20,984 bases of DNA from a virus. Positions 2,837 to 20,984 of this stretch are shown in pieces (position 1 is the first letter of the stretch; every line of letters begins with the position of its first letter). Made by a program: the position numbers and the translations under genes. Under the pieces are notes generated by a model that did no database searches, had not been told where the DNA came from, and saw only the letters and a program-made list of their open reading frames with translations. Location: positions 1 through 20,984 of IMG/VR virus record IMGVR_UViG_3300027608_000196, one strand, 5' to 3'.

Positions 2837-3006
2837 AAAACCTACTAACTACACTACTCGAAAAACTGAGTGAGAACTCCACATGGCGCGGACTGATCCT
2901 AATTGCTATTGCAGTTGGGGTTAAAATTGAGCCAGAACTCCAAGAGTCTATCATCGTCGCAGGACTAGGACTTGTTGGATTAATTAATGTAGTTCGTAAA
3001 GGCTAA
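2833..3006 (+). CDS. Holin-like protein (57 aa)
   Basis: The 57-residue product has a polar helix (MKNLLTTLLEKLSENSTWRG), a hydrophobic segment at about 21-32 (LILIAIAVGVKI), a PELQES turn and a second hydrophobic segment at about 40-54 (IIVAGLGLVGLINVV), ending RKG. The pattern 'STWRGL...G......E.I...GL.LVGLI.V.RK' is one I know from small phage holin-like proteins encoded next to endolysins. It overlaps the lipoprotein gene (ATGA) and the endolysin gene (TAATG), so it is the immediate coupled partner of the endolysin and the stronger holin candidate of the two. Confidence 0.65.
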   Translation: MKNLLTTLLEKLSENSTWRGLILIAIAVGVKIEPELQESIIVAGLGLVGLINVVRKG

Positions 3007-3548
3007 TGGTTCCAAACTCCCGACCGCAGCAAGCAAAGGAGAAGACGCTCTCGATGGTAATTAAATCGGGAATCGTTGATCGTGTTGCTTTGGTTGGTAT
3101 TAGAGGCTATTATCGTGATACTATGGGAGAGAAAGGGAAGAACGATAGGGGTATCTACGATGATGCGATTATACTTTTATCTCCTTCTGTTCATGCTACT
3201 TTCAATGCGAATACTGATCCGTCAGTTCATAAGAAGGGTATCGCGGTTCTCAAAACGGGCATTCATAGGTTCCGTAAGGGGAATCATGGCATTAGTAAAC
3301 CCGGAGGCGGCTACCCTGCGCTTCGACCTTCTAACCCAAAAGAAGAACTGCCAGTCACGCGGGATGGGATTGGGGATGATATGGGAATCGCTATTAACAT
3401 ACATCGGGGAGGATACAACACCACATCGTCGTTGGGTTGCCAAACGATCTACCCGCCGCAATGGGACGGATTCATCAATTTAGTCTACTCAGAAATGACT
3501 AGATACAACCAAAAGACAATTCCCTATCTATTAGTGGAAACGACTTGA
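3006..3548 (+). CDS. Endolysin with L,D-transpeptidase-like motif (180 aa)
   Basis: The protein contains GIRGYYRDTMG (31-41), NDRGIYDDAI (46-55), a TFNANTDPS segment (65-73) and INIHRG-x6-SLGCQTIYP with His133 and Cys145. The His...SxGC arrangement resembles the catalytic motif of YkuD-type L,D-transpeptidases, and this set of motifs is shared by a group of phage endolysin-like proteins. It probably cuts or remodels peptidoglycan after holin action. There is no signal peptide, so it needs the holin for export. ATG 3006 overlaps the holin stop (TAATG). An internal start at Met17 (base 3054) would give a slightly shorter product starting nearer the conserved part. The exact bond cleaved cannot be told. 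Confidence 0.72.
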   Translation: MVPNSRPQQAKEKTLSMVIKSGIVDRVALVGIRGYYRDTMGEKGKNDRGIYDDAIILLSPSVHATFNANTDPSVHKKGIAVLKTGIHRFRKGNHGISKPGGGYPALRPSNPKEELPVTRDGIGDDMGIAINIHRGGYNTTSSLGCQTIYPPQWDGFINLVYSEMTRYNQKTIPYLLVETT

Positions 3549-3579: not shown

Positions 3580-5439
<1,860 letters not shown>

Positions 5440-6026: not shown

Positions 6027-8585
6027 ATGGCACTAACTAAAGCAACACAAAACGTCCTAGAAGGGATCGTATCGACTGGATCAACTGGAGTATCCGCAGG
6101 ATCATTCGTTGTAGCACAGCAATACAAGATCACTGCTCTTGGAACAACCACACAAACGCAATGGAACACAATTGCTGGAACCACGGGACAAACTTATGTC
6201 GTAGGGTCTTTGTTCACGGCAACAACCACTGGATCAGGTTCTGGAACTGGGGCAGCAGCAGTAGCAAGGACATTGGCTAATAGGTTTGCTGATGTGGTGA
6301 ACGTATTAGATTTCGGTGCTGATCCTACTGGAGTAGTTGATTCTGCAACATTTATTCAAAATGCAATAAATTACGCAAATTCATCTACGACTAAAAAATT
6401 CGTATACATCCCTTCTGGTAAATATAAAATTTCAAGCCAACTTCAAACTTATAGTAATGTTACGATAAGCGGTGATATTAATGGGTCTACAATTTTTGAT
6501 TACTCAACTCAAACAACTGGTGATTTCATATACACAGTTCCAACAGTTGGATCACCAATAGCAATATCTTCTAATATTGGAAGATATGATACGAGCGTTT
6601 CAACAGCATCACCGCATGGCGCATCTGTCGGAGACAAGTATGCGTTGTTGTCGCAAAGAAATGCTTTGACTCCTGATGGTGGTGATTGGCAATTGGGTAT
6701 TGGAACTGGGTCACTAAAAGCATCGTATTATAGTGAAATTCTTAATGTTCAAACAGTAAATGATTCTGATACATTTGAATTTTATCCACCGCTTATATTT
6801 CCAGATTACAATACAAGTAACTCAGCGGAAACTCCAAATACAACAAAAGTATGTAATATACCAACTGTTGCATCTGGGAATTATGCTTTTACAATTACGC
6901 TTGCATCTGGAGATACTACTGGATTGGTAGAACAAATGACTGTGACTGGAACTGGAATTCCATCAAGTTATGTTGTTAGGATTTCTGCAATTATAAATTC
7001 TACACAAATCAGGATGTATTCTTCATCTGATGCTGGATTTACTCTTACGAGCGGAACAACACTTACTTTTACAATCAACAGTAGAGCGAATGCAGATATT
7101 AGAAAGATAAATTTTGTTGATGATGTAAGGATTCAAGACATTAATTTTATTTCTGGAACAGGATCAAACAAAATAAATCTGTATGGAGTAAATAATGGAT
7201 TGGTTAAAAATTGTCACTTTTCATTAAATGCTATTGGAGAAGCAGTAAATTATTTAAATTGTTACAATACTAAATCTGTTGGATGTTCTGTTTTTTACAC
7301 GGCAGGAATTGCAAATTCATTTACTTACAATCCACTTTCAAATATCTCAAGTTGGAATTGTGGATATGAAGATTGCAAAATTGAAAATGGTTATCAAGGA
7401 TTTGATGTAACATATTCTGACGGATTTTTTGGATCAAGTGTATTTTCACCATGTCTTTTTGCATATGTAGATAGGTGTATTGTTATAAATTGTGCAAATG
7501 GAATGACATCACACTCAGGATCATATGGTGTAAAAGTTACAAATAATCAATTTTTATATTGCGGCACCGGAGTGTTTTTAAGATCGCCAAATTCAATTTG
7601 CACGAATAATGTAATTACTGGTGACAGTTCAACTCAAGGATCTGGTATTTTATTATTTAATTATTGTTATAATACATTAGTATCTAATAATTTAATTGAA
7701 GCATTCCAAGAAGGAATTTACATATCTCCTTCAGTTGCTCTACTCGGATTTGCTATTAAAAATGTAAGAGCAAATGTATCGAATAATGTTATAAAAAGAA
7801 CACTTATGGGGATTCGCATTGAGGGTTCAGATTATTACCATAAAACCGCAGATTTGATGAATGTTATCATTAATAACAATACGATTACAGATTCAGATAA
7901 ACATATTGTTTGTGAAGAGTATTCAAATGGAATATCAATTGTTGGAAATAATTTAGTAGGCCCAACTACAGGTGGAACTGGGCCATCTATAAGTATTGCA
8001 AATGATTGCTTTTCAGTAAATGTAAGAGACAATATGTTTTCAGATATTGGAACTGGAAATCCAATAAGCGTTGGAACATTAACAGATACTACAGTATATC
8101 CACCATCTAATTACAAATATAAAACCAACATGGTTTTTTGGAGTGGAAACAAATTCTTTGGAGACACAGTTGGAGCGCAACAAATATTTGCAACATCGTA
8201 TGATCCTAATGTAGATAACAAATATGTTGATTCTGGAACATATACACCATCGCTTGCTCTATCAACAAATGTTACTACAGTTGTATTTTCTTTGTGCAAT
8301 TTTTCTATAAAAGATAGGATTGCAACTCTTTCTGGAAGAGTTACAATTACTCCAACAGCAAACGGAGTCGCAACTGTTAGATTTGCTCCACCAATTCCAT
8401 CAAATTTAAACGCACTTCTTACAAATGCGTCTTCTTCTGGAACAGCGGCTTCAACAAGTAATAGCACTCAAACAATTGGAACAATATCATATGATGGAAC
8501 AAATAATGTAATTTCTCTTGGGTTTATTGCAACAAATACATTGGCAAATGAATTTAGATATATTTTTCAATATCCAATTTGGTAA
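6027..8585 (+). CDS. Beta-helix tailspike, pectate-lyase-like (852 aa)
   Basis: Residues 1-80 hold a tail N-terminal module (FVVAQQYKITALGTTTQTQW...VGSLFTATTTGSGSGTG). Residues 88-115 (FADVVNVLDFGADPTGVVDSA...IQNAI) are the typical entry of pectate-lyase-3/glycosyl-hydrolase-28-like right-handed beta-helix domains on phage spikes. The next 500 or so residues carry many short Asn-rich turns (VSNNLI, VSNNVI, INNNTITD), as expected of beta-helix rungs. The last ~110 residues (YTPSLALSTNVTTVVF...DRIATLSGRVTITP) form a separate beta-rich cap. It probably binds and cleaves capsular or exopolysaccharide; substrate and chemistry (lyase or hydrolase) are unknown. The gene is clearly more A/T-rich than the hub gene downstream. 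Start context is AATATTATG. Confidence 0.82.
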   Translation: MALTKATQNVLEGIVSTGSTGVSAGSFVVAQQYKITALGTTTQTQWNTIAGTTGQTYVVGSLFTATTTGSGSGTGAAAVARTLANRFADVVNVLDFGADPTGVVDSATFIQNAINYANSSTTKKFVYIPSGKYKISSQLQTYSNVTISGDINGSTIFDYSTQTTGDFIYTVPTVGSPIAISSNIGRYDTSVSTASPHGASVGDKYALLSQRNALTPDGGDWQLGIGTGSLKASYYSEILNVQTVNDSDTFEFYPPLIFPDYNTSNSAETPNTTKVCNIPTVASGNYAFTITLASGDTTGLVEQMTVTGTGIPSSYVVRISAIINSTQIRMYSSSDAGFTLTSGTTLTFTINSRANADIRKINFVDDVRIQDINFISGTGSNKINLYGVNNGLVKNCHFSLNAIGEAVNYLNCYNTKSVGCSVFYTAGIANSFTYNPLSNISSWNCGYEDCKIENGYQGFDVTYSDGFFGSSVFSPCLFAYVDRCIVINCANGMTSHSGSYGVKVTNNQFLYCGTGVFLRSPNSICTNNVITGDSSTQGSGILLFNYCYNTLVSNNLIEAFQEGIYISPSVALLGFAIKNVRANVSNNVIKRTLMGIRIEGSDYYHKTADLMNVIINNNTITDSDKHIVCEEYSNGISIVGNNLVGPTTGGTGPSISIANDCFSVNVRDNMFSDIGTGNPISVGTLTDTTVYPPSNYKYKTNMVFWSGNKFFGDTVGAQQIFATSYDPNVDNKYVDSGTYTPSLALSTNVTTVVFSLCNFSIKDRIATLSGRVTITPTANGVATVRFAPPIPSNLNALLTNASSSGTAASTSNSTQTIGTISYDGTNNVISLGFIATNTLANEFRYIFQYPIW

Positions 8586-8850: not shown

Positions 8851-9597
8851 ATGGATGAAGTGAAATTATTAGAGTTTATGAAAATAAACTATGCGACAAG
8901 AAAAGATATGTCGCAGTCCGTTAAATTATTTCAAGAAATCGGTTATAATGTAATAAAGTATTTTGATATTGATGGAGCGCAAGGTTATCTAACTAAGAAA
9001 GATGATGATATTGTGCTGTCTTTTAGAGGCACACAAGTATCATTTACTGGCATAAATAAAACGGAAAAGTCAGATATTTTAGCTGATTTAAATGTCAGTA
9101 AAGAAAAAGAAAGCGGTGGCAAGGTTCATACTGGATTTCAAAAAGAAGCAAATAAATTATGGGAAGCGGTAGCTGTTGAAATCGCTCAACATATTTCTGG
9201 AAACAAATTGTTTATAACTGGTCATAGTTTGGGAGCGGGAATCGCTACAATTGTTGCATCTAGGCTGCAAGATAAAGTCGATACTCTTATTACATTCGGT
9301 TCGCCCAGAGTAGGGGATGGTGATTTTGTAAAGCATTTAAAAGTCAAACACCTTAGAGTTCAAAACACAAATGACTATGCTTGTTTTCTACCGCCACTAT
9401 GGATGGGGTTTAGGCATCATGGCACAAATCTGTACATTGACCGTATTGGTAATGTGCAAGAAATCGGTTTAATTAAAAAATCGAAAGATATGGTACTATC
9501 ATTAGTCAAAGATTTCAAGAATGGTAATTATATTTCTGCATTTGTTGATCATAAGCCGATTAACTATATTAATAAACTAACCTTTTTAAATAATTGA
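8851..9597 (+). CDS. Class 3 (alpha/beta-hydrolase) lipase (248 aa)
   Basis: The protein shows the class 3 lipase pattern: VLSFRGTQ (55-62), VHTGFQKEA (92-100), the nucleophile elbow ITGHSLGAG with Ser126, TFGSPRVGD (148-156), NTNDYACFLPP with the likely acid Asp175, and FVDHKPINYI with the likely base His234. A full catalytic triad is therefore present. It would hydrolyse acyl esters of lipids. It has no signal peptide or obvious tail-anchoring domain, so it may act inside the cell, at lysis, or be packaged in the virion. It sits between the tailspike and a fibre gene on the same strand. The 55-base leader shows no Shine-Dalgarno sequence and no clear promoter. Confidence 0.85.
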   Translation: MDEVKLLEFMKINYATRKDMSQSVKLFQEIGYNVIKYFDIDGAQGYLTKKDDDIVLSFRGTQVSFTGINKTEKSDILADLNVSKEKESGGKVHTGFQKEANKLWEAVAVEIAQHISGNKLFITGHSLGAGIATIVASRLQDKVDTLITFGSPRVGDGDFVKHLKVKHLRVQNTNDYACFLPPLWMGFRHHGTNLYIDRIGNVQEIGLIKKSKDMVLSLVKDFKNGNYISAFVDHKPINYINKLTFLNN

Positions 9598-15287: not shown

Positions 15288-16658
15288 ATGGCCGAAGATA
15301 ATATATTAGCAAGTAACCTAGCACAACTGGGAGGTCAAATCTCTTCAACATTCCAAACTGTTGCATTACAAAACCAATACAAGAATGCACTACCCGGAAT
15401 GCAAGAAGCCTTCAAATCTGCCATGACAGACTTCGACTCTGGTAAAAGTGGCGCAGGATTCAGCAAGATCATGGCAATAGCTATGGAGAATCCTAACAAT
15501 CCCTACATCCAGAACATTACCCAGATGGCATTCAAGGCTGGTCAGTTTGCTTCTGATGATTACTTTAAGGGTCAGCAGATTGATGTATCTAGGGCTAGAT
15601 ATGGTGGTGGAGGTGGTTCTCAAGTCACCGCAGATGATATTATAACTGGACTAAATGACCAAGATGGAATAACACCAGATGTAACTGAAGAAGGAATTGT
15701 TGATCAAGGAGTAGCTGAAGCATCAAGGGCTGGAGCAATGGGGCTTCCAATTGGTGAAGCAATCAGGGCAAGGCAGCAAAGAATGCAGCAGCCAACATTA
15801 GTTCCACAACAACAGTCAATGCAAGCTCAAGAAGATAACCTAGCTGTACAAGGTGATCTATCGACCCCAGTTGAAGTGCAACTGCCAGTACAAGAATCAG
15901 CACCAACACCTCTCGCATTTAAACAAGAGAAACCACAAGAGCAACCAAGCCCACTTGAGATAACTTTCCAAAAGAAATTTGATGATTGGTCATCTATGCC
16001 ACTAGAGAAGCAAAAGGCACAAGATGAAGCTACATCTATATCGTTTGGTTCTGAATCAGATTTAAGTAGTCATGTCAGCAAACTTCCAAGAGGACAAAAG
16101 TTTGTTGCTGCTGACCCATCTTTACAATCCGTTATCCCCGGAGTAACTGGATTTATTCTTCCAGAAAAGTTTTCTCAATGGGTTAGAAGAGGAGTGACTG
16201 TAGGCAAATCAATCAGTCAAACAATTGGTAAAGAAGACAAGTTGGCAGATGAATCTAAGAAATCGGCTGAATGGTTCGATGCTTTTAGTGATGCAGCAGT
16301 GAGTGTAGACGCTAACCCAAGGTTGCGTAATCTACTAAAAGACGCTGGTGGTGTAGCCAATATTGAATACCAACCTGTTAAACGACCTCCAACAGATGAG
16401 GAAAGAAGGGCTAATTACAATGCTGGAATGCAAGAAGTAATTCAAGCATCTATTCGTGGATCAAAACTTCCTCCAATTGAAATCACAAAAGATGAGGCTC
16501 AAGACCTTCAGACATTAAAAACAAAAGCTGCTGCTATGCAAACGATGGGTGCGAAAGCAGTTATTAACAGATCATCTATAAAGAAACCAGAAGCAGTTAC
16601 ACCAGCACCAAAAAGTGCTGGACAAAAGAAAGAACTTAAATCTATATTCCTTAAATGA
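15288..16658 (+). CDS. Probable internal/ejection virion protein (456 aa)
   Basis: This hydrophilic, Gln-rich protein has a helical N-terminal part (1-100; IMAIAMENPNNPYIQNITQM), a glycine patch (YGGGGGSQ near 105), and a low-complexity Gln/Pro linker (about 165-235; QQRMQQPTLVPQQQ). Further helices lead to a Lys-rich tail. It has no membrane segment and no recognised enzyme motif. Its place between a membrane-active internal protein and a giant C-terminal one fits a T7 gp15-like partner. The start context is AACTATTATG, and the stop overlaps the giant gene as ATGA, so the two should be made in fixed proportion. Confidence 0.55.
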   Translation: MAEDNILASNLAQLGGQISSTFQTVALQNQYKNALPGMQEAFKSAMTDFDSGKSGAGFSKIMAIAMENPNNPYIQNITQMAFKAGQFASDDYFKGQQIDVSRARYGGGGGSQVTADDIITGLNDQDGITPDVTEEGIVDQGVAEASRAGAMGLPIGEAIRARQQRMQQPTLVPQQQSMQAQEDNLAVQGDLSTPVEVQLPVQESAPTPLAFKQEKPQEQPSPLEITFQKKFDDWSSMPLEKQKAQDEATSISFGSESDLSSHVSKLPRGQKFVAADPSLQSVIPGVTGFILPEKFSQWVRRGVTVGKSISQTIGKEDKLADESKKSAEWFDAFSDAAVSVDANPRLRNLLKDAGGVANIEYQPVKRPPTDEERRANYNAGMQEVIQASIRGSKLPPIEITKDEAQDLQTLKTKAAAMQTMGAKAVINRSSIKKPEAVTPAPKSAGQKKELKSIFLK

Positions 16659-19600
16659 TCTTCACGGCAGACAAGCTAAAAGAAGCTAGGGATGCTGGAT
16701 ATTCTGATGATGAAATATTTAGTTTTGCAAGTCAATCAGACCCAAAATTTAATGATGCTAAATCAGAAGGCTATTCACTTGATGAGATAGCATCTTACTT
16801 TTCCACTCAACAACCAGTAGGAACTTCAGTAGAGCAAGAAGTATCACAACTTGGAACTGCGCTTAAATCTGGTATCGCTCAACCATTGCAAGCGATGGGC
16901 GTTACTGCTGAGACTCTCGGTATGCCAGCAGTTGGTTCTGCACTCAAGGGTGCGGTTGAACAACCAGAAGGCTATATCCCAGCAGCACAGAGATTCATGG
17001 AGCCGCAAGCTGGCGAAGCTCAAATCGGAGGATTTGCATTACAATATCTACCTCGCGCTATCGTTGAACAGGTCGGACAACTCGCAGGGAGTGTCGCATC
17101 TAGGGCTGCTGGGGGAGTCATCGGCGGTGCTGCTGGCTCAGTAGTTCCCGGCGCGGGAACAGCAGTTGGTGCTGGTATTGGTATGTTTACTGGCCCAGCA
17201 TTGTTTGAAGCTGCACAGATCGTTGGCCCAGTCGCACAAGAACGAGCCAAGAACAATGGCAGGGAAATCCCGAATAGCGAAGACTTGGCCTATGCTTGGA
17301 CTACAGCAGGGACTGGAGGTGCGCTGAATGCTATTGGTGCAAAGTATCTCCCCGGTGGAGAGAAGGCCGCTGGAGCATTAAGCAAGAGGATTGCGGCATC
17401 CTTCCTTGGTGAAGGAGCCACTGAAGGAGCGCAGGCAATAGCCCAGCAAACAGGCGAAACAATCTTCACAGAGAAGGGGCTAGAGATTAAACCAAAGGCC
17501 GCGCTAGGTGAGGCATTGATCGGTGGCGTGTCAGCAGGCGGAGCTACTATTGTGATGAGTCCACTTCAGAAAGAACAAGTGGACATAGATAAACAAGCCG
17601 ATCTTGAATCCCGTGATCTTTCCATCCCTGTAGATGATCCAGAAGTGCGAGCTAATTTGGATAAAGCAAATATCCTTGAGCAAGAGAACAAGGATTCTCT
17701 AGCTATCATCAACAAGTTTGGCGTTGAGTCTGAAGAGGGGAAAGCTGCCCAGCAAACTATTGTTGATAATACCGATGAGATTACCAAGATCAACGAGACT
17801 CTTCCTGCTTCAGCATCGTTACCGATAACTGAAGCAGAGAAGCAACAGATTGAGTTAGCAAAAGCGATTGCTGCTCCCGAAGTTGCCGCACCAGTCACAG
17901 AAGTTGCCGCTCCAGTTACTCCAGCACCTACCGAAGTTATCCCAACTCAGGCAGCAGTCGCAGAAGCTGCAACACCCGCTGAACAAGTTCCTCCAAAGGT
18001 AGAAAATGTTTCATCTATTCCAACGCCAGAAGAATCTAAAAAGTGGGATGACTTATCAGCTTATCAAAAACCAATCATTGAAGCACAAGAAACTGAAGCG
18101 TTAGACCTACTTGCATCTAAAATTGGAGTTAAAAGACAAGGCATTTCAGATGTTAAACTGCAAGAAAAAATAATAACGAACACGCATCCAGACGATATTC
18201 AAGATGCGCTTGTTGAGTTAAAACTTTCACCATCACCAACCCCCGTAGCCCCCACCCCTGCTGTAACAGAAGCACCCGTAGAGGTTGCAATAACAGAAAA
18301 AACACCAGAGCAGCAACGTATAGCGTTAGGAACAAAGCGAGTTGGAGATACCGCTGTAGCTGCAAAACCTTCAAGTTCCAACACAACACTTCAAGACTTC
18401 ACTGTTGGCATGACTCCAATGGCATCAAAGCGAGCCATAGATGCCTTGAATAATTCAGTGACTGCTGAAGGAATGCCCTTCAGAAGAAGAGAGCTTGTTG
18501 AAAAAGATATTTCAGAGGGAGCAGAAGTTGTATTATCAAAGTCAGGTAAGCGCAGATTACAGCGACCAAATGGAAGCTATAGGGACGAGTCGCAAATCAG
18601 CAAAACAGCAATGGATTATGCGGAGTTTCTGATTGCAAATAAGTCCACCCCCGCAGTATCGGAAACGATAGCGAAGCCAACTACGCCAAAACTTCAAAGA
18701 GAAAAGGCAGATACAGACTTTGCGAGTATTGATGAAATCACAGATATTATCCAAGAATCATCTGCGAAAGGAACGGATAAATCTGAATCTAAAAGAATCG
18801 CTATAAATTTTGTTAAAGATTCTATAAATGAAAGCATTGATTGGGTCAGAGATACTTTTGGAAGTGCGCCAGAAAAAGTTGGATTTGATGCAAGTCAAAT
18901 GAAGAAATGGTTACAGAATGCCGTCTCCATAAGGCCAGTTACAGAAGATGAATTTACTCGCGGAATAATAAAGAAAAAGGGTCAACTAACTAAGGAAGGA
19001 AGAGATCGAGGGAAAATAGATGTTAGTGTAATATCCCCAATGGAATCGAGGATGATTGCTTTGCATGAAGCATCTCACTTCTTGTATCATTTGGATGAAG
19101 ATAAACAAATTCCAGAAAAAGTATTAAATTCAATTAAGAATAAAAGACTTATGCCGGATAAGTTTCCTAATCCGGGCAAGGGAATCAAAGAAAGATTTGC
19201 TGATGCTTTTACAAACTGGGCATTTACGAAAATGCACCCAGAATATGCAAATGAATTTCCAACAGTCCCTCAAGAGTTTGTTTCTTGGATAGAATCAGAA
19301 GCAATAAGCGAACCGCTTGATTACATTTCAAGTGTAAATAAAATTAGAAAGCAAAAGCAAGCCAAACCAAAACTTGGCGAGAAAGGTGGCGTTCTAATCC
19401 CATCAAGAGAAGACTTCATCCAAGCAGGACAGAACATCTACGAAAAAGGAATGGAGTTTGGCGCTTGGGCCAAGCAGATGATCCAGCAATTCGGTGATGT
19501 AGTCAGAGAGTTCCTTGGTGATGTATGGCAAGCGGTGAGTGGTGCGCCAGCTAAACTGAATGAACTGATGGGTTACTTGCCGGGTAAAGGTGAGGCTGGT

Positions 19601-20984
19601 GCATTAAGATTTGGTAAAGGTAAGCTAGAACGCTACACAGACAAGGGAACAATCGTTGGTCTAGCTATCAGACAAGAGAAGGATACTCCCAAAGGGATAT
19701 TATCGGAAACGATAAAGATCATTAAGCAAAGGGTATTTGATGGTGACTCTACCCCATCTGAGTCTTCTACTAAGAAAGCATGGGGATTAATTGAGCGGTT
19801 GAAAGCAACTAATCCAGATGCCAAAAACAACGCCGAGGCTATCAACCAACTTACCCGCGAAACCATGCAGGAGGTTGATGTAGCAGAAGACGCAACTGAG
19901 GCAGAGCGCAACGCATTTGAAGTTATCAAACAGACTGTTGGTATGTCTAAACTTCGCAATGAGTTGTATAAGTATGCCATCAAGTTATCGGGGCAGGGCG
20001 ATAATTCCATGTTGAATTACTTGCTCAACAATAAACTCAACATTGTTGGAACAAGTCTTGCAACTGAAGAAGACATTGCTCGCACACTCGGCGCATTGGC
20101 GGGGCTTAAAAGCTACATCATCCAAGCTAACGAAGCAGAGCAGGCAGGATTTATTGAACTGGCAGCACAGAGATTCTTCAACACAACTACACCAACTGAA
20201 GATCAGGTTGCCAAAATCAAAAGAATCCTTACCGCTGTAAATGAGACAAAGGTAAATGAGGAAGAAGTAATTCTTGATGAACTCACTCAAGTAGGTGAGA
20301 AGATAGGAACTGAACTTGTAGAGAATATCAATACCCAAATTGATAAAGCAACAAAGCCAGAGATTAAAGACCCATTGGTTGCAGCTATGCTTGCGTTACA
20401 GAAGCTATTTGGAGGCACAATCGAAACTAAATATGTATCCCTTAGTGAATCGGCAAACAAAATTAAGCAGGGTGTAAAGAACATCCTACAAGGCGGCCTC
20501 ACCAACTACAGAAGCAAACTGATCGAAGGAGCAGCTAATGGACTAGAGACGGGATTCTGGAAGACTCTATCTAATCAAGAGAATAAGCCCGGCCCACTAG
20601 GAGAACTTGATAATGCACAGAACAGAGAGCTTGGCAGTATAGTTAAAAACGCACTCATTTCCCTTGGCCTAAAAGGAACTCCCCCTAATACCAAGATGTC
20701 TATCTACGAACAGGTAGCTAGTATCCTTGGTGAGAAACCACTTTCACAAGATAAAACAAAGTCTGCTGACGAGAAGATCAGACAAGAAATTGAGAGTAAA
20801 CGTCAAAGCGACTTGGAATCTACAGAGGATGAAGACGTTAAGAATGCTATCAATCTCAAGTATGATAAGATAGAACTAGCATGGGATCAAGCAATGTCTA
20901 GGCAGCTAGATATGCCAATCAGTGACACACTACTACGCAGACTTATCTTCAATGAGCTTAAAGAAGGTAAGACTAACCTAGCTG
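16655..20984 (+). CDS. Giant internal/ejection virion protein with zincin-like motif (partial, >=1443 aa)
   Basis: The frame opens at ATG 16655 (ATGA overlap) and stays open to the window end. Two tandem N-terminal motifs, ARDAGYSDDEIFSF (11-24) and AKSEGYSLDEIASYF (35-49), are followed by a Gly/Ala-rich, membrane-compatible region (about 141-185). A Pro/Ala/Val linker spans about 405-450. A zinc-protease-like site HEASH (804-808) is followed 38 residues later by KERFADAFTNWAF with Glu846 as a possible third ligand. A module near 935-961 (FGAWAKQMIQQFGDVVREF...) is seen in large phage virion proteins; a long helical part follows. It is probably ejected with DNA and cleaves or remodels host components. 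I infer metalloprotease activity. T7 gp16 has a similar place, but no lysozyme motif is visible here. Confidence 0.7.
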   Translation, partial: MIFTADKLKEARDAGYSDDEIFSFASQSDPKFNDAKSEGYSLDEIASYFSTQQPVGTSVEQEVSQLGTALKSGIAQPLQAMGVTAETLGMPAVGSALKGAVEQPEGYIPAAQRFMEPQAGEAQIGGFALQYLPRAIVEQVGQLAGSVASRAAGGVIGGAAGSVVPGAGTAVGAGIGMFTGPALFEAAQIVGPVAQERAKNNGREIPNSEDLAYAWTTAGTGGALNAIGAKYLPGGEKAAGALSKRIAASFLGEGATEGAQAIAQQTGETIFTEKGLEIKPKAALGEALIGGVSAGGATIVMSPLQKEQVDIDKQADLESRDLSIPVDDPEVRANLDKANILEQENKDSLAIINKFGVESEEGKAAQQTIVDNTDEITKINETLPASASLPITEAEKQQIELAKAIAAPEVAAPVTEVAAPVTPAPTEVIPTQAAVAEAATPAEQVPPKVENVSSIPTPEESKKWDDLSAYQKPIIEAQETEALDLLASKIGVKRQGISDVKLQEKIITNTHPDDIQDALVELKLSPSPTPVAPTPAVTEAPVEVAITEKTPEQQRIALGTKRVGDTAVAAKPSSSNTTLQDFTVGMTPMASKRAIDALNNSVTAEGMPFRRRELVEKDISEGAEVVLSKSGKRRLQRPNGSYRDESQISKTAMDYAEFLIANKSTPAVSETIAKPTTPKLQREKADTDFASIDEITDIIQESSAKGTDKSESKRIAINFVKDSINESIDWVRDTFGSAPEKVGFDASQMKKWLQNAVSIRPVTEDEFTRGIIKKKGQLTKEGRDRGKIDVSVISPMESRMIALHEASHFLYHLDEDKQIPEKVLNSIKNKRLMPDKFPNPGKGIKERFADAFTNWAFTKMHPEYANEFPTVPQEFVSWIESEAISEPLDYISSVNKIRKQKQAKPKLGEKGGVLIPSREDFIQAGQNIYEKGMEFGAWAKQMIQQFGDVVREFLGDVWQAVSGAPAKLNELMGYLPGKGEAGALRFGKGKLERYTDKGTIVGLAIRQEKDTPKGILSETIKIIKQRVFDGDSTPSESSTKKAWGLIERLKATNPDAKNNAEAINQLTRETMQEVDVAEDATEAERNAFEVIKQTVGMSKLRNELYKYAIKLSGQGDNSMLNYLLNNKLNIVGTSLATEEDIARTLGALAGLKSYIIQANEAEQAGFIELAAQRFFNTTTPTEDQVAKIKRILTAVNETKVNEEEVILDELTQVGEKIGTELVENINTQIDKATKPEIKDPLVAAMLALQKLFGGTIETKYVSLSESANKIKQGVKNILQGGLTNYRSKLIEGAANGLETGFWKTLSNQENKPGPLGELDNAQNRELGSIVKNALISLGLKGTPPNTKMSIYEQVASILGEKPLSQDKTKSADEKIRQEIESKRQSDLESTEDEDVKNAINLKYDKIELAWDQAMSRQLDMPISDTLLRRLIFNELKEGKTNLA
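18657..18670. repeat. Dyad TATCG-GAAA-CGATA in the giant gene, copy 1
   Basis: An exact copy of the dyad half-sites with spacer GAAA. As RNA it would form a stem closed by a GNRA-type tetraloop. It codes for VSETI. Confidence 0.5.
19700..19715. repeat. Dyad TTATCG-GAAA-CGATAA in the giant gene, copy 2
   Basis: Full six-base half-sites with spacer GAAA, so a six-pair RNA stem with a GNRA-type loop is possible. It codes for LSETIK. About 270 bases on, at 19985-20004, the same half-sites occur with an eight-base spacer. Confidence 0.5.

Follow-up and report, generated by a model that had tools for sequence, protein, structure and literature searches.

A probable zinc-metallopeptidase domain in a giant late phage protein looks like an optional, exchangeable cassette

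Introduction

Zincin-like MPTase domains in polyvalent proteins were described by Iyer, Burroughs, Anantharaman and Aravind in 2017, and processing or effector roles were proposed for them, with autoprocessing placed first and host-directed effector use given as a further possibility (PMC5512222). The CLCA_X family, published in 2013, was seeded with Bbp10 of Bordetella phage BPP-1 (PMC3650047). What the ejected enzymes do has been a question for phage MPTases since that period (2013-2017).

Here, we analyzed an IMG/VR record of 20,984 bases (IMGVR_UViG_3300027608_000196) from an uncultured phage, the whole of which is referred to below as the window. A preliminary description of this DNA had interpreted a HEASH motif in a giant, presumably ejected protein as a zinc-protease site. 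We find this interpretation probable, and we examine how the domain is distributed among related phages, what it resembles, and which role would fit it best.

Results

The motif is encoded in the last gene of the window, which runs past the window end, so that the protein is cut off at residue 1443:
16655..20983, + strand: first 1443 of the 2445 residues of a giant late protein (ORF, open at the 3' end)

A complete copy of 2445 aa was identified at L002:10001-17335, on the 49,718-bp contig IMGVR_UViG_3300027659_000050 (L002), with 100% identity across all 1443 window residues. The giant protein is probably carried in the virion, and since its gene position resembles that of the giants of BPP-1 and Pseudomonas phage AF, by this analogy it would probably be packaged and ejected with the DNA. 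In each of these two phages, the gene of the giant follows genes with the annotations internal virion protein and transglycosylase/endolysin; homology of the window phage's neighboring proteins to BPP-1 or AF was not detectable. With regard to membrane-spanning helices, the giant has one hydrophobic 19-mer above KD 1.5, at 2262. As had been noted from the sequence, no transglycosylase family was matched in the window proteins tested, and scanning the full-length giant with Pfam or PHROGs yielded no N-terminal transglycosylase of the T7 gp16 type; this feature is missing in P22-like gp16 as well (PMC8954989).

The phage group to which the window belongs looks poorly represented in reference collections. 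Neither the C-terminal 1001 residues of the giant, nor a 320-aa neighbor protein, nor an 812-aa ORF (L025) had a tblastn match among 50,697 phage records, and the 812-aa ORF and three further ORFs had no PHROGs match. The ORFs without PHROGs matches include the large ones at L025:1628-4066, L025:5928-7337 and L025:1-1200. Neighboring genes may encode nozzle, adaptor, portal and terminase, an impression which was not used as evidence. Elsewhere in the window, a 619-aa protein (3580-5439) displays collagen-like GATGATG repeats (Pfam Collagen), an 852-aa protein, perhaps a tailspike, includes a pectate-lyase-like stretch (6027-8585; PF12708, E 5e-17), and two predicted alpha/beta hydrolases lie in the same gene cluster (259-2502 and 8851-9597), one of them a class 3 lipase (PF01764, E 2e-20). 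For a 180-aa protein (3006-3548) no Pfam match was obtained; its HRGGYNTTSSLGC stretch is reminiscent of L,D-transpeptidase-type lysins. An ORF cluster at L024:10608-14183 (- strand) resembles, as an impression from sequence, glycosyltransferases and a methyltransferase.

Next, we compared the region around HEASH among giants of related phages. Presence/absence and identity among relatives delimit the following segment:
18647..19363, + strand: swappable cassette, residues about 665-903

The cassette was found in 2 of the 8 records searched at E <= 10. It is carried by L003 (91% identity), whose contig ends early, and by L014, in which the homologous block spans residues 660-910 at 80% identity while the C-terminal backbone is just ~35% identical. 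Conversely, the giants of L004, L005 and L006 are 79-92% identical over residues 904-2445 and display no trace of the cassette. Besides the window, carrier searches found only the same three contigs (L002, L003 and L014), with none among genome contigs; these searches relied on exact matches to peptide words or on tight patterns, by which distant carriers could be missed. The GC content of the cassette is 0.33-0.35 versus 0.42-0.47 for its flanks in all three carriers measured, although its GC3 is not the lowest of the blocks within the L002 gene. Since close relatives lack the domain or have other pieces in its place, the cassette looks optional and seems to move between diverged backbones, i.e., it looks like an interchangeable infection tool and not a fixed part of the virus.

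The surrounding sequence is mosaic as well, with another module immediately upstream:
18308..18637, + strand: second shared module, residues about 552-661 (also in giants without this protease cassette)

This module is 66% identical to L007, 33% to L011 and 34.5% to a Desulfovibrio phage, and it occurs in two Desulfovibrio phage records. L006 has a counterpart, at 82% identity, of a 60-residue segment that follows the cassette in L014, and L007 has a HEWAH of its own at another place. The L014 giant also includes a second HExxH site, HELGH, from L014:11132 onward (residue 1267), and an ART-PolyVal-like stretch at L014:11369-12013 (PF18760, E 0.0013, below Pfam's cut-off).

Sequence comparison at the cassette junction revealed a short recurrent DNA word:
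18647..18670, + strand: linker DNA ACCCCCGCAGTATCGGAAACGATA (TPAVSETI), residues 665-672, at the cassette junction

Over 15-24 nt, this word is present at 7 of 7 junction sites in 6 giant genes (window 18647-18670; L003:12056; L004:11495; L005:12527; L006:11774; L014:9932 and 10661), with the first 15 nt identical at all of them, and in L014 it stands on both sides of the cassette. The flanks upstream of the linker sites are near random. Among 135 loci, the word was found nowhere beyond those same contigs and the window; genome contigs contained none, phage records gave no convincing match (E 4), and L007, L010 and L011, giants that are more distant, lack it in the parts examined. Across the backbone that four sisters share, identity at the DNA level was seen in only 29 of 444 windows of five codons whose amino acids are invariant, and in 184 of 467 fourfold codons. 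Judged by this comparison, the linker DNA is conserved beyond synonymous expectation. Another recurrent word encodes AEAPAPE and is present in four giants.

Homologous exchange at conserved boundary sequences is a known model for phage genes (PMC3233612), and the linker pattern is consistent with exchange of this kind at a short linker that the giants have in common; alternatively, the word may simply have been co-inherited with recent cassettes. Our searches of freely accessible literature, including PMC10684548 and PMC3233612, revealed no account of such exchange inside an ejected protein. It is possible, if on the unlikely side, that the N-terminal half of the giant is an effector exchange site for which the linker word provides the homologous joint of in-frame cassette swaps. 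The linker DNA would then be kept nearly identical across lineages as a joint for whole cassettes, i.e., the zinc protease and other modules.

We then evaluated what the cassette encodes. Both HEASH at residues 804-808 and Glu846 in the later KERFADAFTNWAF (residues 845-857; Glu846 codon at 19190-19192) can be read directly in ORF 16655-20983, as the preliminary description had stated:
19064..19078, + strand: HEASH, with His804, Glu805 and His808 as predicted zinc ligands and general base (family alignment)
19187..19225, + strand: KERFADAFTNWAF helix with Glu846, predicted third zinc ligand (pattern search, alignment, model)
18824..19330, + strand: predicted zincin-like metallopeptidase domain, residues 724-892 (models, alignment, fold searches)

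Since HExxH by itself occurs at only about twice its chance frequency in TrEMBL (PMC3650047), the motif alone is weak evidence. Viral contigs were searched with a pattern for the Glu helix, E-x-F-A-D-A-F-x-x-W, which has no HExxH in it, and the 15 stretches found comprised the 3 known carriers and 12 others. An HExxH lay 29-64 residues upstream in the same ORF for 8 of these 12, or 5 of the 9 non-redundant groups obtained after merging identical or near-identical loci. Given a background of 0.024 HExxH per 120 residues (11 in 55,993 residues from long ORFs of the same 12 loci, a rate that counts the hits themselves), ~0.2 of the 9 groups would be expected to carry the motif, versus 5 observed. 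HExxH and the Glu helix were found together in unrelated giants and in smaller ORFs, and by these counts their pairing is not chance. Across a 37-row alignment, whose rows were partly selected by motifs that include the Glu-helix stretch, columns H81, E82 and H85 (HEASH) and E123, F125 and A126 (Glu helix) were invariant in 37 of 37 rows. Carriers L002, L003 and L014 (84-100% identity) retain HExxH, the Glu and the F and A after it. Relatives lacking these residues had been named as grounds for doubting the site, and the outcome is mixed: all carriers found, i.e., the three contigs and the window, keep them, while the three sisters are without the whole cassette.

One domain found via the Glu-helix pattern, L034, had tblastn matches to 14 phage records, of which 8 were examined, the rest being duplicates or near relatives. 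All 8 displayed an HExxH followed by E[KQ]FAxxFExY in a giant late protein, including Bbp10 of BPP-1 and gp16 of AF. When a 3-row window profile was compared to the 8 reference phage domains, hhalign paired HEASH with HExGH and KERFADAF with HEQFARGF (prob 63%, E 7e-5), and 7 control segments from the same giants reached at most 1.5%. Adding L034, L039 and L040, which were pattern-picked, i.e., chosen for the Glu motif, raised this to prob 88% and E 3e-6 (11 rows), while reversed and shuffled controls did not exceed 0.5%. The probability dropped to 20% (E 1e-3) when 79 close BPP-1-type domains served as the reference. Kinship of the window domain with BPP-1-type phage domains is probable, and not proven by sequence. 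At least 549 of the 600 candidate stretches listed were relatives of the BPP-1-type domain; of the 80 relatives kept, 79 match both motifs and the remaining one has W for F. The window domain itself is about 15-21% identical to this phage family in the 37-row alignment.

Curated models did not recognize the domain, with no Pfam match up to E 10, no NCBIfam match, and PHROGs matches only at E 0.08-0.12. Scanning the giant, whole and in pieces, against libraries placed no protease family on the HEASH domain, and the profile of the 37-row alignment matched nothing below E 0.1 among PDB sequences. Weak matches to IBP39, GeBP-like, BrxL-like and ETV6 chains at PDB, to a Vibrio phage protein without HExxH, and to Pseudomonas phage head-region proteins were judged chance. 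Kinship with ArdC was set aside, as hhalign covered just 27 columns around motif 1 (prob 41%).

Structure prediction by AlphaFold2 was poor from only three close sequences (pLDDT 53.1) and reached pLDDT 70.6 and pTM 0.70 with 37 rows. In the latter model (model residue n is protein residue n+723), a helix comes first, followed by three strands, the HEASH helix and then the Glu helix, an order which is that of the described core of polyvalent-protein MPTases (PMC5512222). The predicted elements ahead of HExxH are H23-33, E34-38, E53-55 and E65-69 (block pLDDT 52-74). HEASH lies in model helix 72-90 (mean pLDDT 77 for the ten residues from HEASH onward), and Glu846, model residue 123, lies in helix 121-137 (pLDDT 74-92 for blocks 101 to 160). 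The gluzincin-like layout suggested earlier gains support from this model, which places HEASH and Glu846 on successive helices in zincin order; as a kind of site, it had already been published and is not new. In Foldseek searches, the first 18 PDB rows were structures of anthrax lethal factor (M34), with prob up to 0.97 and a best E of 5e-3, and no match had E <= 0.001. VIA-align listed lethal factor, PPEP enzymes, IrrE/PprI and one HExxH oxygenase (8s5f) at Z 4.6-6.4, none at Z >= 8; nearly all rows listed were HExxH enzymes, and the alignment with 4dv8 had Z 6.4 and rmsd 4.9 over 128 aligned residues. Overall, the model best resembles gluzincins, though weakly, and a 37-row model may inherit the fold of relatives at 15-21% identity.

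Discussion

The layout of the site, the family resemblance, the fold resemblance of the predicted model, the presence/absence pattern and the cassette exchange are direct observations. On balance, we lean towards an effector that is a zinc metallopeptidase, is optional, enters with the genome and is exchanged as a cassette; its metal, activity, delivery and host target are what we infer. Residues about 665-903 would form a zincin-like zinc-metallopeptidase cassette that is complete in itself and belongs to the type known from phage polyvalent proteins. The large late protein that houses the cassette, in its mosaic N-terminal half, would probably be packaged in the virion and leave it together with the DNA. 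Within the cassette, His804 and His808 of HEASH and Glu846 are predicted to bind Zn, with Glu805 as the predicted general base. Given that phages can do without the cassette and that it passes between diverged backbones, it would most likely act on host proteins just after entry, as an effector or in counter-defence, rather than in virion maturation. Virion maturation, one of the three roles offered in the preliminary description, is disfavored: close sister phages do without the whole module, so an essential role of this type is unlikely.

An accessory role after delivery thus fits best, with self-processing of the giant as its chief competitor. Under the latter, the peptidase would cleave the linkers between modules of the giant, either ahead of packaging or once the protein has been ejected, and free the neighboring modules. 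Autoprocessing has been proposed for P1 DdrB and for polyvalent-protein MPTases generally (PMC5512222), and the recurrent peptide TPAVSETI does stand between modules. However, L004, L005 and L006 retain this linker without a HEASH cassette, which makes the linker independent of this protease; its DNA is conserved more than the peptide needs, and N4 vRNAP is packaged unprocessed (PMC5512222). We consider autoprocessing rather doubtful here.

It is less probable still that the zincin-like fold is no working protease, i.e., that it represents a decayed copy, a binding module, or chemistry like that of alpha-ketoglutarate HExxH oxygenases. The fold search did list an HExxH oxygenase domain (8s5f, Z 4.6), and a preprint likens the C1 HExxH of N4 vRNAP to zincin metalloproteases and radical-SAM-type enzymes (PMC12633501), but the carriers and the 37-row alignment keep HExxH and the Glu together with the F and A that come after it, and most top structural rows are peptidases. 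That HEASH is a chance motif within a non-enzymatic structural region, as the roughly twofold excess of HExxH over chance in protein databases (PMC3650047) and the lack of any family-model match might suggest, is highly improbable against its co-occurrence with the Glu helix, the profile match with its controls, and the zincin-like topology of the predicted fold.

If the effector reading is right, one slot holds different modules in sister phages whose backbones are almost alike, and such sisters would offer a natural comparison for what ejected enzymes do. The linker word would likewise be a defined joint at which domain swapping within an ejected protein could be tested.

Compared to known systems, the best structural matches of the predicted model are the catalytic domain of M34 lethal factor and PPEP-type Pro-Pro endopeptidases, at 11-18% identity and Z 4.6-6.4; their biology is different, and a shared substrate is not claimed. 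The HExxH-to-Glu spacing is 42 in the window and 43-49 in M34 and PPEP enzymes. ArdC-type MPTases of conjugative plasmids start with HEAxHxxxH, similar to HEASHFLYH in the window, but have a shorter spacing to the Glu. T7 gp16-like ejection proteins have a transglycosylase at the N-terminus, whereas the scans of the window giant matched no such family. CLCA_X and Bbp10, the latter a late protein of roughly 2000 aa encoded after internal-virion and transglycosylase genes, share with the window an HExxH and a downstream ExFA helix; in the published CLCA_X consensus HExxHxxxD, an Asp stands four positions beyond the second His, where the window has His812, with Asp814 at +6. The polyvalent-protein MPTases share the HExxH helix followed by a Glu helix, the zincin core, and the setting in a giant, multi-module late phage protein, and modules like the HELGH site and ART-PolyVal-like stretch of L014 are their expected company. 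Unlike them, the window copy is not recognized by library models and is about 15-21% identical to the phage family. We regard the window domain as a probable phage-type MPTase of polyvalent proteins, i.e., a known kind of domain for which exchange as a cassette is the fresh part.
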